DNA of 41,329 nucleotides from an uncultured Clostridia bacterium (GTDB lineage Bacteria > Bacillota > Clostridia > Oscillospirales > Acutalibacteraceae): positions 1 to 41,329 of the forward strand of contig CAMHHL010000010.1 of the NCBI GenBank assembly GCA_946184925.1. The letters run 5' to 3'. Shown piece after piece: positions 36,010 to 41,329 of this stretch (position 1 is its first letter; each line of letters opens with the position of its first letter). The notes under the pieces were generated by a model that was not told where the DNA came from, did not search any database, and saw nothing but the letters and a program-made list of their open reading frames with translations. The translations under genes were made by a program, and so were the position numbers.

Positions 36010-36028
36010 GAGTTTTCATAACGGATTT
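36010..36028. repeat. Left arm of an imperfect inverted repeat
   Basis: GAGTTTTCATAACGGATTT matches the complement of 36628-36646 at 18 of 19 bases. The pair encloses the zincin gene. The right arm is part of a terminator-like hairpin. Confidence 0.75.
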
Positions 36029-36157: not shown

Positions 36158-36640
36158 ATGAACATATGGCAGCAATTTGAAAAGAGACCGGATAAAGATA
36201 TAAAAGATCATGGGATTTCTTTTCATTATGAAAAAGGTATTGAACTTGTATTGAAGAAACAGTATGTTGATTTTTCCGGATGGCTACGAAAGAATTACTG
36301 TTTTCCTGTACATATTAACATTTACATTTTGAATCAGGAAAAGGTTAAGTTATCAAGCGGAGTGTGGGCATACGGTAGCTTTCGCTGGTTTGAGAATCGA
36401 CCTCCGAGAATTAAGATACCCTCAAAAATCGAATATGATTTACTTTCCGAATATACATACGACGAGATTTATGAACAAATACTATCTTCTTTGGTTCATG
36501 AATTAACGCATTATTTCCAGTGGGTACTTAGGCTCGAACAAAGCAACGCGGTATCTGAACGACAAGCAAATTATTATAGATACCGAATCATAGACAAATA
36601 TAAAAAGGAAAAGAGTGTCCATAACGTAAATCCGTTATGA
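36158..36640 (+). CDS. Putative zinc metallopeptidase (HExxH, ImmA/SprT-like)
   Basis: No family name is certain for this 160-residue protein. Residues 114-118 are HELTH within SSLVHELTHYFQW, and 15 residues later SERQANYYR supplies a likely third ligand, E134. The HExxH...ExxAN pattern recalls ImmA/IrrE (DUF955) and SprT-like gluzincins. No DNA-binding domain or signal peptide is seen. Base use is clearly more AT-rich than in neighbouring genes, which suggests horizontal transfer. It lies between the imperfect inverted repeats at 36010 and 36628 and beside a tRNA-end attachment site, so it may be a leftover of an earlier insertion. The stop codon falls inside a hairpin. Confidence 0.7.
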   Translation: MNIWQQFEKRPDKDIKDHGISFHYEKGIELVLKKQYVDFSGWLRKNYCFPVHINIYILNQEKVKLSSGVWAYGSFRWFENRPPRIKIPSKIEYDLLSEYTYDEIYEQILSSLVHELTHYFQWVLRLEQSNAVSERQANYYRYRIIDKYKKEKSVHNVNPL

Positions 36641-36646
36641 ACACTC
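36601..36646 (-). terminator. Minus-strand terminator, probably of the tRNA whose 3' end is at 36651
   Basis: GAGTGT (36613-36618) pairs with ACACTC (36641-36646), and CATAACG (36620-36626) with CGTTATG (36633-36639), with one mismatch and a 6-base loop. On the minus strand a T-rich tail (complement of 36601-36612) follows. It lies five bases past the tRNA-like CCA, as expected for a tRNA terminator. It also contains the right arm of the inverted repeat. Confidence 0.7.
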
Positions 36647-36650
36647 ATAC

Positions 36651-36663
36651 TGGTCGAGGTGAC
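36651..36663 (-). other. Candidate left attachment site: tRNA 3' end (tRNA-Pro-like)
   Basis: On the minus strand this reads GTCACCTCGACCA, exactly the 3' acceptor strand, discriminator A and CCA of a tRNA; CACCTCG pairs with a 5' CGAGGTG as in many bacterial tRNA-Pro genes. The bases beyond (towards 36670) do not form a T arm, so only the end is present. This is what a tyrosine-integrase element leaves at the junction away from the intact tRNA. The intact gene should lie at the element's right end, outside the window. The tRNA identity is inferred. Confidence 0.65.
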
Positions 36664-36735
36664 CGTGAAATATGGCTAAAACACTGGCTTTTTCACGGTT
36701 TGACTGCACTTTCGACTGCAGTTTTATTGTTTTTC
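36662..36735. other. Element-end hairpins and GACTGCA direct repeats
   Basis: A perfect 9-base inverted repeat ACCGTGAAA (36662-36670) / TTTCACGGT (36691-36699) adjoins the attachment core. Next come two GACTGCA copies 12 bases apart (36702-36708 and 36714-36720), the second forming ACTGCA/TGCAGT (36703-36708, 36717-36722) followed by a T-rich stretch. They may be integrase arm or core binding sites, or an int terminator. There is no coding evidence. Confidence 0.5.
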
Positions 36736-37903
36736 AGGCAATTTCAAGATTATTTGCCCTCATATATTCATCTGCTACAGCAAGATGTTCATTACGATAT
36801 TTTTCGAATACAGAACAATAAGTGTTTAGTGTAATATTGATATTTGCGTGTCCGAGAATCGTTTGCAATACCTTTGCAGGCATTCCGGATTCAATACAGC
36901 GTGTTGCGTATGTATGTCTTAACGAATGCAAATCCACCCTGCCGTAAACAGTTTTATCAACAATTTTGTGCTCCTTAAGTACATGTGAATAGCTGTAATT
37001 CACCTGATTTGCAGTCACAAGATTATCGTTGTTCGACAGAAACAGCATTCCTGTGTTTCTGCCGTTAATACAATGCTTAAGGAACTGCGACAAGTCTTCG
37101 TTTATGTACAGTGTTCTTTCTCCTGCAAGAGTTTTAGTTTCATTAAGAACATTTCTGCCGTACTTTCCGCGCGCAACGGTTTTGTTCACTCTGATCGTTT
37201 TTCTGTTGAGATCAATATCCTCTACCATCAGCGCACAGCACTCCCCTATTCTCATACCCGTAAACATCGACAAAAGCATTATTTCGCTGTAACGTATATC
37301 CTCGGTTTTGAGCACATCAAGAAGTTTTTTCTGCTCATTGACCGTCAAAGCTCTGACCGGAATCGTTTTCTTATTGGATTTCGGACATTTGATTTCAGTC
37401 AAAGGATTTTCATCAATCATATTCCTGTGCTTTGCCTTTCTGAAAACTGCACCCAAAAGCTGGTACATCTTGTTTATGCAGGATTGAGAGTAATTAAGCT
37501 GAGCCTTGAAGAATTCAATCAAGTCAGCCTCCGAAACCTCGTCAAGCAATTTATCCGAAATATCGGAGAGCATTTTCAGCGTCTCATACTTTCTGTCATA
37601 GCTTGACTGCCTGATTTCATTGAGAGCGAGCTGTTCATCCATCATCTTCTCGGCATACTCAAAAATTGAGGGAGCTTTTGGCTTACTGTCAAGCTCACCC
37701 GCAGCCGCCTGAATTTGCAGCTCCTTGAGTCTGTTGTTAACCTCGCGCTCAGTCTTGCCGTAAACTGTCTTGCGAACTTTTTCACCGTTTATCTCTACAT
37801 AAATCTGACCTGTATATCGGTTACGCCTTTCGGAGTAAAATATTGTTCCGTCACCGTAGTATTTTCTCTTCTTTTTCTTGTCTTTAGCTTTCAAAAAAAC
37901 CAT
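36734..37903 (-). CDS. int: Tyrosine integrase of the mobile element
   Basis: This 389-residue site-specific recombinase has an N-terminal AP2-like arm-binding domain (GTIFYSERRNRYTGQIYVEI), a SAM-like core-binding domain (~70-160) and a catalytic domain. Catalytic residues are visible: Arg in FTGMRIGECCALMVEDID, HSLRHTYATR (H-x-x-R), LGHANI and the nucleophile Tyr in LNTYCSVFEKY. It resembles Tn916-type integrases. ATG 37903 abuts AAAGG, so TTG 37894, with that site at eight bases, is a possible true start. It ends 71 bases from the attachment core. Confidence 0.93.
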   Translation of the reverse strand: MVFLKAKDKKKKRKYYGDGTIFYSERRNRYTGQIYVEINGEKVRKTVYGKTEREVNNRLKELQIQAAAGELDSKPKAPSIFEYAEKMMDEQLALNEIRQSSYDRKYETLKMLSDISDKLLDEVSEADLIEFFKAQLNYSQSCINKMYQLLGAVFRKAKHRNMIDENPLTEIKCPKSNKKTIPVRALTVNEQKKLLDVLKTEDIRYSEIMLLSMFTGMRIGECCALMVEDIDLNRKTIRVNKTVARGKYGRNVLNETKTLAGERTLYINEDLSQFLKHCINGRNTGMLFLSNNDNLVTANQVNYSYSHVLKEHKIVDKTVYGRVDLHSLRHTYATRCIESGMPAKVLQTILGHANINITLNTYCSVFEKYRNEHLAVADEYMRANNLEIA

Positions 37904-37975
37904 CCTTTCCGCTAAAGACCTGAGCCGAATTTCTACTACAATAATAATCGAAATCCGACTCAGTGTCAATAGTGT

Positions 37976-38152
37976 TTACACTCTGCGCTTACCTGCCCAT
38001 TCTTTAAACGCGGTTTCTTCAACCTTCATGGCGCGTCCTACTCTCACGAGCGGGAAATCATATCTAAGCATGATCTGCCGCGCCGTGGGAAGTGAACAGC
38101 CCAGAGCTTTTGCGACTTCCTTAGTCCCCAAGAAAGTGATATTCGAATCCAT
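37976..38152 (-). CDS. xis: Excisionase / MerR-like HTH protein
   Basis: This 58-residue protein has an excisionase-type winged helix: FLGTKEVAKALGCSLPTARQ then RVGRAMKVEETAFKEWAG. Proteins of this kind bend DNA at the attachment site and steer the integrase to excision. ATG 38152 has GAAGGAGAG upstream and lies 32 bases inside the end of the FtsK-like gene. int follows after ~70 bases. The upstream in-frame extension is shadow of the FtsK frame. Confidence 0.85.
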   Translation of the reverse strand: MDSNITFLGTKEVAKALGCSLPTARQIMLRYDFPLVRVGRAMKVEETAFKEWAGKRRV

Positions 38153-39449
38153 ATTCTTTCTCTCCTTCAAAGCTGCTGTCATCAAACCAATATCCCTGAA
38201 ATAGAATATCGGAGTTTGTAAGGAATCGTCCCTGAGCGCTCTTGCTGATTTGATCACTCGCGTCGGTTTTATCAAGAATAATTTGACTGAGTACGTCGTC
38301 AGCCCTTCCGCAAACACGGTAATCAATGTTATTCTTGATCTGACCGCTAATGATGTTAGCGTCGGGACGTTGTGTCGCAAGAATAAGATGGATTCCGAAC
38401 GCTCGTCCGAGACGGGCGATCGTTGCAATCGAAGCCTCGATCTGAGATATTTCATCCTTCTGCTTTTTGTCGAGACCGGTCTTGTCTAAAAGCTCGGCAA
38501 CCTCGTCACAGGCAAAAATTATGCGCCGCAATCTGTTGTAGCCTTGCTTATTGTACTCGTCAATATTTGCATAATCCATATCCGAAAACATTGTCTTGCG
38601 CGCGTGAAGCTCGGTTATGAGCTGCTTAAGCTTTTCTATGAGGTCGGCGCGTTCGGTTATAAAGGTGCATTTTTCGTGCCATACCCTCGGAAAATCGACA
38701 CCGCCTTTGAAGTCGGCGATATATACTTCCGCGCCCTTCTTTACGCACTGCATGAGCAGGCATTTTAAAAGAATGCTCTTTCCGCTTCCTGTTGAACCGC
38801 CGATAAGCATATGCGGCGTAATCGCCAGATTCACTCTCACCTGTCCCGTGTATGTTTCGCCTAGTCCGAGAACGAAATTATCTGTCGGAAGTAGTGCATC
38901 CTTCCATTCGACGAAATTTGGAAGGATATTTGCACCTGAGACGGCAGTAACTACCATATATTTTTTTCCGCGTTCGCATATATCGGTAATGTTAAGGTTC
39001 AGCCCGGATTCGATATCCTCTTTGTGATCGTTCCAGTGGGACAGAGGTATACCGAAATTGCGAAACACAAGCGTAAATACTTCGTTCTCGTCAATCCGCT
39101 GCTCCATTAACAACGGCGTTTCACCGGCATGATTAACTAGTCCGGCTCTCATAGAATCCCTCATCATCTGTCCGGCTCCTTTGGGCTTGCCCAAAGCGAA
39201 AACAAATACTATGAAAATAGCAGAAGCAATTACGATAAGCAGTCCGGCGTTTCCTGTATTGCTGAGTCTGGCAGCCCATTCCAATGTATCGTTGTCCTTG
39301 ATGATCCACCACCTCAAAAGAAGAACGATAGTCCAATATATCGCGGTTATTATAATCGCTCTCGGTCGCTGCACTAATTGTTTTATCCCGTTCGCGAAAA
39401 AGAATAACTGCGCTCTTGCAGTCCAAGTCTCACTTAACCATTGTTTCAT
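38121..39449 (-). CDS. FtsK/SpoIIIE-type DNA translocase (TraB/Orf21-like)
   Basis: This 442-residue membrane ATPase has two transmembrane segments (~31-49 and 68-86), a linker domain and an FtsK motor. Walker A is GGSTGSGKS (217-225), Walker B RIIFACDEVAELL (Asp315-Glu316), with LILATQRPDANIISGQIKNN as the FtsK signature. In Tn916/ICEBs1 the homologue is the coupling protein (Orf21/ConQ); in actinomycete elements a single such protein (TraB) moves double-stranded DNA between cells. ATG 39449 has GGAGGT upstream and overlaps rep by 20 bases. No other transfer genes are seen. Confidence 0.9.
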   Translation of the reverse strand: MKQWLSETWTARAQLFFFANGIKQLVQRPRAIIITAIYWTIVLLLRWWIIKDNDTLEWAARLSNTGNAGLLIVIASAIFIVFVFALGKPKGAGQMMRDSMRAGLVNHAGETPLLMEQRIDENEVFTLVFRNFGIPLSHWNDHKEDIESGLNLNITDICERGKKYMVVTAVSGANILPNFVEWKDALLPTDNFVLGLGETYTGQVRVNLAITPHMLIGGSTGSGKSILLKCLLMQCVKKGAEVYIADFKGGVDFPRVWHEKCTFITERADLIEKLKQLITELHARKTMFSDMDYANIDEYNKQGYNRLRRIIFACDEVAELLDKTGLDKKQKDEISQIEASIATIARLGRAFGIHLILATQRPDANIISGQIKNNIDYRVCGRADDVLSQIILDKTDASDQISKSAQGRFLTNSDILFQGYWFDDSSFEGEKEYGFEYHFLGD

Positions 39450-40470
39450 TATGCACCTCCGATTTAAGATTATCAATCCCTAAATAATTCTTTCCTGTTG
39501 TTGTTATTGTCTTGTATTTTCCGTTTTCGATATAGTGAAACACGAATTCATCTATTCGTCGTAAAAGCTGCCGCATGGTGTCAACATTACGGGATTTGGT
39601 GATCATCCCGTCATACAACTGCTCGGGAGTAAATACCGACGTGATGTGAACCTCATTCCATAATGTGTAGCAATTCGCGTATCTGCAATGAATTTGCGAC
39701 CTATAGCCCTGTGTGATAGTGAGAAGCAATTCAAAAGGTAAAGAATTGGGCTTTAGCTCGTCCATGAAAAGAATCGGCTCGCCGCAGTAATTATCAAAAC
39801 CGCCTACACCCTTATTGCTGTAATCCGAAAAGAAATACACATTATCATCGCCGTGCTTTTCGCAAAGTTTAACGTAAGAATATGACTTTCCTGTTCCGGA
39901 TTCTCCGACGTGCCACACCACCTTGACATTTCGTATCGGCGGCGTTTCCTTGTAGCGTTTTGCAAAATACGCTTTTCGGATAAGTGCCTCCTCTTTTCGG
40001 AGACGTATATCCAACTGCATTATTTCCGAGGGCGTTTTCCCTTCATCGACCAACGTTTCGATTGTAAGTAAAACCTCAGAGTTGTTGTTTAATGCGTATC
40101 GTTTGAAGCCCTCGATGTTGCCGAATGAAGCCGTGGCGATAACTTGTTCACCTTTTTCGGTGTATACGCCTTCTTTTTTGATGTATGCTTTCACCTGAGA
40201 CTTGCTGCCCTTTGTCGGTTCAAGATGTGCTGTAGGATAGACTTTTTTCACTGCGCTGAATCTCATTGCACCTGAATGTTCGAGCACCATATGAACATGC
40301 TTGAGCCCGTCCGATGATATGCAGTACGCCCAATAGCCTTTGCGCAAAGGATTACCTGATATCCATTCGTCCTTCAGCCTGTTCACGATCTCGTCCGGCG
40401 TTCCGATGTATCCGTGTTTCTCGGGATTGTTGAAAACAACAAACCAAGACCTGCTGATTGATTCTGACAT
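39430..40470 (-). CDS. rep: CRESS-type replication initiator (HUH endonuclease + SF3 helicase)
   Basis: This 346-residue Rep has the layout of circular Rep-encoding ssDNA virus and plasmid initiators. HUH domain: motif I WFVVFNNPE (9-17), motif II HVHMV with metal histidines H58 and H60, motif III YIKK with nucleophile Y96 and K99. SF3 helicase: Walker A GESGTGKS (189-196), Walker B ILFMDE (233-238), motif C ITS (276-278). It should nick the origin and start rolling-circle replication of the excised circle, and might act as relaxase. AAGGTGA precedes ATG 40470. Bacterial relatives are the pCRESS plasmid Reps; this element places one between DUF961-like and FtsK genes, where Tn916-type elements have a Rep_trans relaxase. 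Confidence 0.88.
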   Translation of the reverse strand: MSESISRSWFVVFNNPEKHGYIGTPDEIVNRLKDEWISGNPLRKGYWAYCISSDGLKHVHMVLEHSGAMRFSAVKKVYPTAHLEPTKGSKSQVKAYIKKEGVYTEKGEQVIATASFGNIEGFKRYALNNNSEVLLTIETLVDEGKTPSEIMQLDIRLRKEEALIRKAYFAKRYKETPPIRNVKVVWHVGESGTGKSYSYVKLCEKHGDDNVYFFSDYSNKGVGGFDNYCGEPILFMDELKPNSLPFELLLTITQGYRSQIHCRYANCYTLWNEVHITSVFTPEQLYDGMITKSRNVDTMRQLLRRIDEFVFHYIENGKYKTITTTGKNYLGIDNLKSEVHNETMVK

Positions 40471-40484
40471 GTTGTCACCTTATT

Positions 40485-40508
40485 TGTAACAAAGAATAGC
40501 TTGTTACA
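40485..40508. repeat. Inverted repeat upstream of rep
   Basis: TGTAACA (40485-40491) and TGTTACA (40502-40508) form a perfect inverted repeat with a 10-base spacer, 15 bases before the rep start. It contains two of the GTAAC/GTTAC units and could be a Rep operator. Confidence 0.7.
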
Positions 40509-40625
40509 TCCTGAAAGTCCGGTTTTCATGCTGATTGTAACGTGTAACGGCTTAGGGGTAATACTGTAAGCCCTAAGGCGCCCCACCGCAGCCCTGAGGG
40601 GCTGCGGCTAGGGCATTACGGTTAC
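40486..40625. other. Candidate rolling-circle origin: iterons plus stem-loops
   Basis: GTAAC or its complement occurs at 40486, 40503, 40537, 40544 and 40621. Between them lies a stem CTTAGGG (40551-40557) / CCCTAAG (40571-40577) whose 13-base loop contains TAATAC; an alternative pairing is GGCTTA (40549-40554) / TAAGCC (40567-40572). A second strong hairpin CCGCAGCCC (40586-40594) / GGGCTGCGG (40599-40607) follows. Iterons beside a stem-loop with a TAATA-type loop are the hallmark of CRESS origins. The nick site is inferred. Confidence 0.65.
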
Positions 40626-40966
40626 TTCATTACCGTCAAGCCGTCAGCAGTCACGCTCAACTGATTCCGGAAATCACCGTACACGTTCGCGCGCGGGTTA
40701 ATGAGGCGCACCTCAACATTCATCGGAACGCTCGCAGCCTTGTTCTTAGGCACTTTTACGATGAATTTCTCGTAGAGGTTATTAACAGTTGCGTCGCCGG
40801 CAACTCCATAATCGGTCTCATCCTCGATGATAACAAGCTCATATTTGGTGCCGAGCACCTCACCGCTTTTGAAATCAGCCCAAGGCTTTTGAGCGACGGT
40901 CAGGAAGCGCTTACTTTTCGCGAATGCTACAAAATCGAAATGTAAAAAAATATTAAGTTTTTTCAT
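40622..40966 (-). CDS. DUF961-like element protein (Tn916 Orf22/23, YdcP type)
   Basis: This 114-residue protein heads the element operon. The VEVRLINPRANVYGDFRNQL block resembles the V-x-L-V-N-P-R motif of DUF961 proteins (Orf22/Orf23 of Tn916, YdcP of ICEBs1), which also sit upstream of the FtsK-like gene in those elements. Their biochemical role is not firmly known. ATG 40966 has AAAGGAGGA upstream; an ATG six codons earlier overlaps that site. The candidate origin separates it from rep. Confidence 0.7.
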   Translation of the reverse strand: MKKLNIFLHFDFVAFAKSKRFLTVAQKPWADFKSGEVLGTKYELVIIEDETDYGVAGDATVNNLYEKFIVKVPKNKAASVPMNVEVRLINPRANVYGDFRNQLSVTADGLTVMK

Positions 40967-40992
40967 TGGCTCTCCTCCTTTCATGAATTTGC

Positions 40993-41036
40993 GGGGATCC
41001 CCATTTTATCTGTTTAGAAAGATAAAGTGCGCACTT
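40993..41036. promoter_or_regulatory. Two perfect palindromes in the operon leader
   Basis: GGGGATCCCC (40993-41002) and AAGTGCGCACTT (41025-41036) both lie between the promoter and the first element gene. They may bind an element regulator or structure the leader RNA. There is no gene in 40967-41329 that I can support. Confidence 0.55.
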
Positions 41037-41055
41037 CTTTGTTCTTTCTGACTAA

Positions 41056-41084
41056 ATTATAAGTGATTGGAAGCGGGATGTCAC
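41056..41084 (-). promoter_or_regulatory. Promoter of the mobile-element operon
   Basis: On the minus strand GTGACA (complement of 41079-41084), 17 bases, TATAAT (complement of 41056-41061). The expected start is near 41049, giving a leader of about 80 bases. Confidence 0.75.
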
Positions 41085-41104
41085 CGACACTTAATGTCGT
41101 TGAC
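41080..41104. promoter_or_regulatory. Inverted repeat between divergent promoters (candidate operator)
   Basis: GTCACCGACA (41080-41089) and TGTCGTTGAC (41095-41104) pair with one mismatch around a 5-base spacer. The repeat overlaps the -35 of the minus-strand operon promoter and that of a plus-strand promoter-like sequence at 41100. Confidence 0.6.
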
Positions 41105-41129
41105 AAGATTAATAAAGCTGTAATAAAAT
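41100..41129 (+). promoter_or_regulatory. Possible divergent promoter
   Basis: TTGACA (41100-41105), 18 bases, TAAAAT (41124-41129). No clear reading frame follows before the hairpin at 41260, so the product, if any, would be a short RNA of about 150 bases. Confidence 0.45.
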
Positions 41130-41250
41130 TACTATTTATATATTCAATCATCGCTATAGTGGATTGTTTAACCGATTAAAATGATATGTGAAAGTTATAG
41201 TTATAAGTATGATGAAAGAATTAGATAATTCTTCTTAGTATGTATTTTGC

Positions 41251-41294
41251 TAAAAGAAAAACTGTGAAGAAAAGCAGTTGCTTTCTTCACAGTT
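41251..41294 (-). terminator. Terminator for a minus-strand gene beyond the window
   Basis: A perfect 13-base stem (41260-41272 with 41282-41294, core AACTGTGAAG) with a 9-base loop is followed on the minus strand by a T-rich tail (complement of 41251-41260). It implies a minus-strand gene ending just right of the window edge. Confidence 0.85.
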
Positions 41295-41329
41295 ATTCAT
41301 ATGTTTAAAGAATCAAAATGGTAAATCCA

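Follow-up and report, generated by a model that had tools for sequence, protein, structure and literature searches.

The window analysed here is a 41,329-nucleotide stretch of DNA that makes up the whole of contig C10 (CAMHHL010000010.1) of an uncultured Clostridia bacterium of the Acutalibacteraceae, from an assembly of 2.32 Mb in 198 contigs that is 99.26% complete with 3.06% contamination. The right-hand 4.7 kb of the window probably hold an integrative and mobilizable element (IME), inserted in a tRNA-Pro(CGG) gene and similar to streptococcal IMEs rather than to a miniature of the actinomycete integrative and conjugative elements (AICEs). The element has its own tyrosine integrase and excisionase, a rolling-circle replication (RCR) initiator and a TcpA-type coupling protein, with no type IV secretion system (T4SS) of its own detected by two marker families, which are the attributes of an IME with an RCR-type relaxase and TcpA. 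Elements of this kind are already known; what is new, and open to experiment, is a conserved virus-type origin motif beside the replication gene. An earlier interpretation made from the letters of the window (the sequence-only reading) had suggested that this may be a self-replicating, possibly self-transmissible mini-ICE (integrative and conjugative element); its observation is partly confirmed and its interpretation partly supported.

The run of minus-strand genes for Rep, FtsK-like protein, Xis and Int, with a fifth gene, stands as it had been described, as five consecutive genes at 36734-40984. Leftward from 40984 these encode a 114-aa protein (40622..40966; 120 aa if the ATG at 40984 is used), a Rep of the circular Rep-encoding single-stranded DNA (CRESS) type of 346 aa (39430..40470), an FtsK-type ATPase of 442 aa with two N-terminal hydrophobic stretches (38121..39449), an excisionase-like helix-turn-helix protein of 58 aa (37976..38152) and a tyrosine integrase of 389 aa (36734..37903). 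All five frames are open. The motor gene begins 20 bp before rep ends, and the excisionase gene 32 bp before the motor gene ends; such overlaps point to a single operon with translational coupling. The integrase, which starts with ATG and has a possible alternative TTG start at 37969, matches PF00589 (E 4e-30) and the phrog_1 integrase family (E 1e-64), and the excisionase-like protein matches TIGR01764 (E 4.7e-6) and PF12728 (HTH_17, E 1.1e-5), both slightly under the curated cut-off. The 114-aa protein belongs to a conserved, unnamed family found adjoining Rep, with a homologue in the same position, preceding Rep, in Ruminococcus albus (locus L065). The label 'DUF961-like' once given to it finds no support: neither this protein nor the R. 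albus homologue has a Pfam match, a Pfam domain is found in none of the 43 family members (the window's own included), and only a weak DUF961 contact (E 0.12) was seen in 1 of 35 members.

The Rep was described from the start as an HUH nuclease joined to a superfamily 3 (SF3) helicase, and this is borne out by motifs in an alignment of 33 sequences, the window included, and by matches to solved Reps. The Pfam matches, to Viral_Rep (PF02407, E 4e-4) and RNA_helicase (PF00910, E 9e-3), are both under the gathering score. Both His residues of HVHM in the window, which we take to be motif II, are invariant, as are Y96 and K99 in Y-I-K-K, presumably motif III; GESGTGKS and ILFMDE lie at the places expected of what we likewise assume to be Walker A and Walker B. 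SF3 motif C usually holds an asparagine. This residue seems absent from the aligned Reps, most of which read TS[IV] there. The Rep profile matches four solved sequences (best E 5e-11), of which three bear the name Replication-associated protein and the fourth is called ATP-dependent helicase Rep. Database searching gave 844 proteins at E 1e-3; among the best 120 of these, four carry a source name, one reading 'CRESS-DNA virus Rep endonuclea(se)', the others being uncharacterised or hypothetical. Grouping with the Rep_trans relaxases, raised early on as the alternative, is not seen, with no match of the window Rep to Rep_trans (PF02486, MobT) at E 0.1. The single plasmid record matched at E 1e-5 (tblastn) is p4M, at 27% identity. 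With YxxK and without YLxH in motif III, an SF3-type domain and this affinity to p4M, the Rep falls in the pCRESS1-3 (p4M-like) group. A tree built from 63 Reps joins the window to R. albus AR67 (L065) and Coprococcus catus with 100/100 support; the place of p4M in it is unsure because its branch is very long.

A single-sequence Rep scan of genome contigs found nothing, while an alignment scan found 61 loci; a scan of viral contigs gave no match. Counts are given on 59, which are 58 of these loci plus the window, the partial Reps at L122, L123 and L125 having been left out. L085 and L097, with one stop each in the matched frame, were left out of the Rep tree only. The 59 are not independent events, since the loci are related and near-copies (L072, L073 and L076; L079 and L100) were kept.

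Immediately upstream of rep, on the rep strand and between the gene for the 114-aa protein and rep, there is a stem-loop with CAGTATTAC, a CRESS-type nick motif. This putative origin of rolling-circle replication (40551..40577, minus strand) has a 7-bp stem, CTTAGGG / CCCTAAG, and a 13-nt loop, CTTACAGTATTAC. It is adjoined by four iteron-like copies of GTTACA/TGTAAC (40485..40548, minus strand; starts at 40548, 40541, 40508 and 40490), which amounts to four within 151 bp, where the window as a whole averages 0.48 per kb. Viral nonanucleotides cleaved by Rep, such as AAGTATT*AC and TAGTATT*AC, are described (PMC7826260) as part of stem-loops whose stems measure 9-11 bp and whose loops, which hold the motif, measure 10-13 nt.

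The same arrangement was sought at the 59 loci as a loop containing AGTATTAC on a stem of 7 bp or more, within 800 nt upstream of Rep (six loci have less, 118 to 728 nt). It is present on the rep strand at 37 of the 59 and on the opposite strand at none, with a background of 16 in 9025 other windows of the same loci and 0 in 5900 mononucleotide shuffles. Upstream of Rep, 37 of 38 rep-strand AGTATTAC octamers are in stem-loops, with 27 different 7-nt arms; of the 24 octamers elsewhere in the loci, 6 are in stem-loops. The origin motif is kept while the stem sequence changes. All four loci among the 59 in which a long motor gene follows rep have the stem-loop, two upstream of rep and two just downstream; in the latter, L081 and L082, it lies at the rep/motor gene junction, starting in L081 within the last 6 bases of rep. 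It occurs, too, at three Rep-motor loci that are more distant, L016, L059 and L062, with stems of 11, 7 and 12 bp. No published description of this stem-loop in integrated bacterial elements was found in the titles and abstract openings among the matches listed, and the main text of Kazlauskas 2019 (PMC6668415) uses neither 'nonanucleotide' nor 'stem-loop'.

The left edge had been placed at 36651, and this is indeed the first base of a repeat of the last 13 nt of tRNA-Pro(CGG), the attL core (36651..36663, minus strand), with the element lying rightward. Beyond these 13 nt the window sequence diverges from the tRNA. The 54 bp at 36610-36663 have 96% identity to the 3' end of the intact tRNA-Pro(CGG) on contig C58 and its downstream hairpin, and different acceptor ends are seen in tRNA-Pro TGG and GGG, the remaining tRNA-Pro genes found here. 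Judged by sequence, the element appears to be integrated into the 3' end of the tRNA-Pro(CGG) gene, the left repeat being the usual mark of this. Repeats of this nature recur in relatives. At six of nine loci tested, the end of a tRNA or tmRNA, or its flank, is repeated over 28-98 nt at a distance of 3.6 to 12.0 kb, the longest chance match being 12-14 nt; these are six of the seven loci with the Rep family of the window and neither of the two with distant Reps. In L081, which has the same Rep-motor-Xis-Int order, the 46-bp repeats are of a tRNA-Ala 3' end and are 12.0 kb apart. No repeat above chance was found at L059 or L067, and L063 has only 14 nt, compared with a shuffled maximum of 13.

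On the other side, position 41329 is the end of the contig and is not shown to be the end of the element, since the window is the whole contig. No right att repeat was found in the assembly. The final 345 bp of the contig match other contigs over at most 17 bp exactly or 22 bp imperfectly, and no clean empty site was found. A search of 39 further genus genomes did not find the gene for a 160-aa protein that lies left of attL. Contig C58 was considered as the right junction and rejected, its tRNA-Pro(CGG) preceding the shared hairpin and a serine-recombinase element.

This right end, which is not closed, and the rarity of Rep relatives (17 of 300 family genomes at E 1e-3 and, among the four genus genomes listed, only the window's own) would suit a stable integrated plasmid or a remnant that replicates or excises and no longer moves. 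Such a state is unlikely, however, given the five open frames with their tight overlaps, the complete Rep motifs and the retention of an origin-like stem-loop.

The neighbours of the Rep family are varied. Frames of at least 90 aa within 8 kb of Rep were surveyed at the 59 loci: a long motor is downstream of Rep in 4, a short motor (211 to 314 aa) upstream in 15, a Zot-type ATPase is present in 11 and none of these in 29, some of which may be cut by contig ends. The upstream stem-loop is found in 2 of 4, 9 of 15 and 7 of 11 of the long-motor, short-motor and Zot-type loci, respectively. On the Rep tree the four neighbour labels need 17 changes (minimum 3; shuffled mean 30.3), while the Zot label is unclustered (11 changes; shuffled mean 11.1). 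The two nearest Rep neighbours of the window already differ, L065 having a long motor downstream and L066 a short motor upstream. The partners of these Reps have therefore been exchanged, and exchange of inovirus replication genes has been described by Kazlauskas 2019 (PMC6668415) and Roux 2019. The order Rep-motor-Xis-Int itself recurs at L065, at L081 and, with a more distant Rep and an excisionase read by eye, at L059; of the three, only L065 has the 114-aa family, and it pairs the Rep module with a Tn916-type excisionase and integrase. Loci with Zot-type ATPases near Rep (L058, L067, L077, L119 and others) are filamentous-phage-like; small open reading frames surround the Rep of L058, and L119 has 46-bp tRNA-Arg repeats 8.3 kb apart.

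It is quite unlikely that the element is a relative of the filamentous phages, either with coat and Zot genes in its unseen right part or as a satellite packaged by a filamentous helper phage. The proximity of Zot-type genes in 11 of the 59 loci, seven of these with the upstream stem-loop, speaks for it, as do six deposited phage records with Reps 25-27% identical to that of the window. The two records opened are Inoviridae, one (L175) having the stem-loop with an 8-bp stem and the other (L174) only 4 bp, and for one Rep family of inoviruses an SF3 helicase motif is described in Roux 2019. On the other hand, the 4.7 kb that can be seen hold neither a Zot nor a coat gene, the motor resembles TcpA and is no Zot protein, and none of the four long-motor loci has a Zot match (L082 being a contig of 4.4 kb).

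The nature of the motor bears on the comparison with AICEs, in which the sequence-only reading had found the plan of the element. Its Pfam match is to PF01580 (E 4e-14). The best structural match is a 'DNA translocase coupling protein' (PDB 6o1w-6o1z; E 9e-66, 226 bits, residues 117-435), which we take to be TcpA of plasmid pCW3; FtsK follows at E 1.5e-15. The three best plasmid matches are plasmids of Enterocloster bolteae, with pCbo51 ranking first. By BLASTP the motor is 35% identical over 413 residues (223 bits) to a pCbo51 protein whose gene belongs to a tcp conjugation locus and has those of TcpD and TcpE as neighbours, compared with 93 bits for a Listeria FtsK-type gene and 54 bits for a large gene of the Streptomyces plasmid pIJ101 beside spdA and spdB, in the TraB position. 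The latter is presumably TraB, its record being labelled helix-turn-helix protein. NF041214 (plasmid_TraB), which has a cut-off of 800 bits, is matched with 17.7 bits (E 1e-3). On these comparisons the motor belongs to the TcpA-type coupling proteins of type IV secretion and is not an actinomycete TraB pump. The Listeria record had served for a Tn916-type comparison, which was dropped, as the unannotated match looks like a chromosomal FtsK-type gene. In the database there is also a 741-aa protein (P0141) with a Viral_Rep-type Rep and a TcpA-type motor in one chain, either a natural fusion or a frameshift in its source.

An AICE-like, self-transmissible mini-ICE would pump double-stranded DNA to the next cell with the FtsK-type protein alone. 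The gene set of Int, Xis, Rep and FtsK-type motor without a T4SS fits this, as does a genome in which no T4SS helper was found, yet the reading is very unlikely and was rejected, mainly because the motor is a coupling-type protein. In addition, the motor ends some 16 residues past the part aligned to the solved coupling protein, with no domain after it, and no cluster of 8-bp repeats is found in the element outside the motor gene. The sole cluster is within that gene, and the commonest 8-mers have four copies, as in most of 50 mononucleotide shuffles. Clostridia, moreover, are not known to grow as mycelia.

No type IV secretion genes had been seen in the element, and none came to light elsewhere: VirB4-type (PF12846) and TpcC (PF12642) proteins have no match in the whole assembly, in searches that matched the Bacillus subtilis control both times, so that neither an ICE nor a helper is found in this genome. 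A T4SS just beyond the right edge is thereby tested indirectly. That the five genes are the front part of a full ICE cut by the contig end, as an end at 41329 might allow, is extremely improbable and was rejected, given these negative searches of a 99.26% complete assembly and the lack of any T4SS domain in the three flanking genes scanned at L065 and the eight proteins scanned at L081.

Several points weigh against the IME reading and its origin. Any cargo beyond 41329 is unseen since the right end is absent from the contig, and the single intact tRNA-Pro(CGG) found in the assembly leads into a hairpin and a serine-recombinase element and not into the right end of this one. No helper T4SS was found in the genome with PF12846 and PF12642. 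The 114-aa protein is detected at only 2 of the 59 Rep loci, and 22 of the 59 are without the upstream stem-loop, although L081, L082, L091 and L097 have one elsewhere within 6 kb. The stem of the window, at 7 bp, is the shortest of the 37 and below the published viral range; taken by itself, the stem-loop does not exceed shuffled sequences in folding stability (z -0.32). The transfers of Viral_Rep IMEs are, in the review PMC5704250, marked as proposed.

As an IME, the element would be excised as a circle by Int and Xis. Rep would nick the loop of the stem-loop at 40551-40577 and drive rolling-circle replication with its own SF3-type helicase; that it does so at this site is probable from the motif, its position and its conservation. 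The TcpA-type protein of the element would then pass the Rep-bound strand to the mating pore of a co-resident helper element and, in the recipient, Rep would close the circle and Int insert it. The earlier portrait of a compact, integrated element with a virus-type Rep, probably self-replicating once excised, is retained, while 'self-transmissible' was its weakest part, mobilization by a helper appearing to fit better than self-transmission. It is tentatively proposed, with somewhat less than even confidence, that the virus-type nonanucleotide stem-loop combines the roles of replication origin and origin of transfer (oriT), at which Rep nicks, replicates the circle and leads the strand via TcpA into the mating pore, and that Rep plus origin is a cassette swappable between conjugation hitchhikers and filamentous phages in Clostridia. 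The role of virus-like Reps in integrated bacterial elements, as replicase, relaxase or both, has rested on inference. A conserved nick motif offers a defined DNA substrate on which nicking, replication and transfer can each be tested separately. Through the stem-loop, the link between bacterial hitchhiker elements and eukaryotic CRESS viruses would extend from the protein to the DNA site itself.

A promoter-like site for the operon (41056..41084, minus strand) agrees with 11 of 12 consensus positions and is weak because the stretch has 12 promoter-like sites compared with 9.3 in shuffles. A terminator-like hairpin of 14 pairs precedes the operon, 35 bp from the contig end (41260..41294, minus strand), and another of 14 pairs lies beside attL on the chromosome side (36613..36646, minus strand); terminator-like sites, at 6 in the stretch against 4.1, are only slightly commoner than in shuffles.

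The hairpin beside attL, near-constant in sequence (CCAGTATGAGTGTTCATAAC...), trails different tRNA genes (Pro, Leu and Met) in the window at 36613-36646 and at L051, L052, L053 and L149-L160, and a 20-nt piece of it is found in 11 of 40 genus genomes with at most one mismatch. A serine recombinase 77-89% identical to that of C58 adjoins it at L151, L153, L156 and L160, with fragments at L052, L053, L152 and L158. The hairpin looks like the end of a serine-recombinase element targeting tRNA 3' ends. The gene for the 160-aa protein lies in 36158-36640, flanked by two inverted partial copies of the hairpin (36010-36028 and 36628-36646). In the window's own genome, L051 (1-7266) is a serine-recombinase element beside tRNA-Pro(CGG), with genes for a MobA/VirD2-like relaxase, ParB and an actin-like protein; the genome carrying it has no VirB4-type match. 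At L043 and L190 (G000 contig C16 near 2710) the hairpin is split by an insert of about 160-170 bp beginning AAGGCAACACCGCAC, which is also present on C41 and is a repeat resembling miniature inverted-repeat transposable elements.

Among known systems, actinomycete AICEs and TraB plasmids such as pIJ101 share with the element a minimal gene set with an FtsK-fold motor, but differ in motor family, in the domain that follows the motor and in the repeat cluster between genes, both of which are lacking here. The hosts of AICEs belong, it appears, to another phylum than the host of the window. The Tn916/ICEBs1-type ICEs share a TcpA-type coupling protein and an RCR-type initiator with a possible double role in replication and transfer; the element differs in having no MobT (Rep_trans) match, no T4SS found and the reverse order of motor and initiator. 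It was said to keep the front half of the Tn916/ICEBs1 gene order, and this does not hold, since tcpA is upstream of the relaxase gene in those ICEs, as in streptococcal IMEs (Coluzzi 2017, PMC5357655), and Rep is upstream of the motor here.

Plasmid p4M is the type of the p4M-like cluster pCRESS1-3, most Reps of which are in site-specifically integrated elements (Kazlauskas 2019, PMC6668415). The element shares with this cluster an HUH and SF3 Rep without the YLxH signature, and p4M too has an FtsK-domain gene adjoining Rep. The p4M motor, however, is of 258 aa and upstream of Rep, the Reps are only 27% identical and p4M has no TATTAC. With the CRESS-DNA viruses the element shares, on sequence grounds, the domain plan of Rep and the nonanucleotide stem-loop, and it differs from them in having no capsid gene among the five genes seen, a stem of 7 bp and C as the first nonanucleotide base.

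The closest likeness is to the streptococcal IMEs of classes 4 and 7 in Coluzzi 2017 (PMC5357655), which have a Viral_Rep or Rep_2+helicase initiator, TcpA, Xis and a tyrosine integrase, and for which helpers having TcpA are proposed in the review PMC5704250. The element departs from these in that Rep precedes the motor with the 114-aa protein in front, in its tRNA-Pro(CGG) target and in its non-streptococcal host. What it has in common with them is the RCR-initiator type of relaxase, TcpA, Xis, a tyrosine integrase and the absence of a T4SS, in a similarly compact order.

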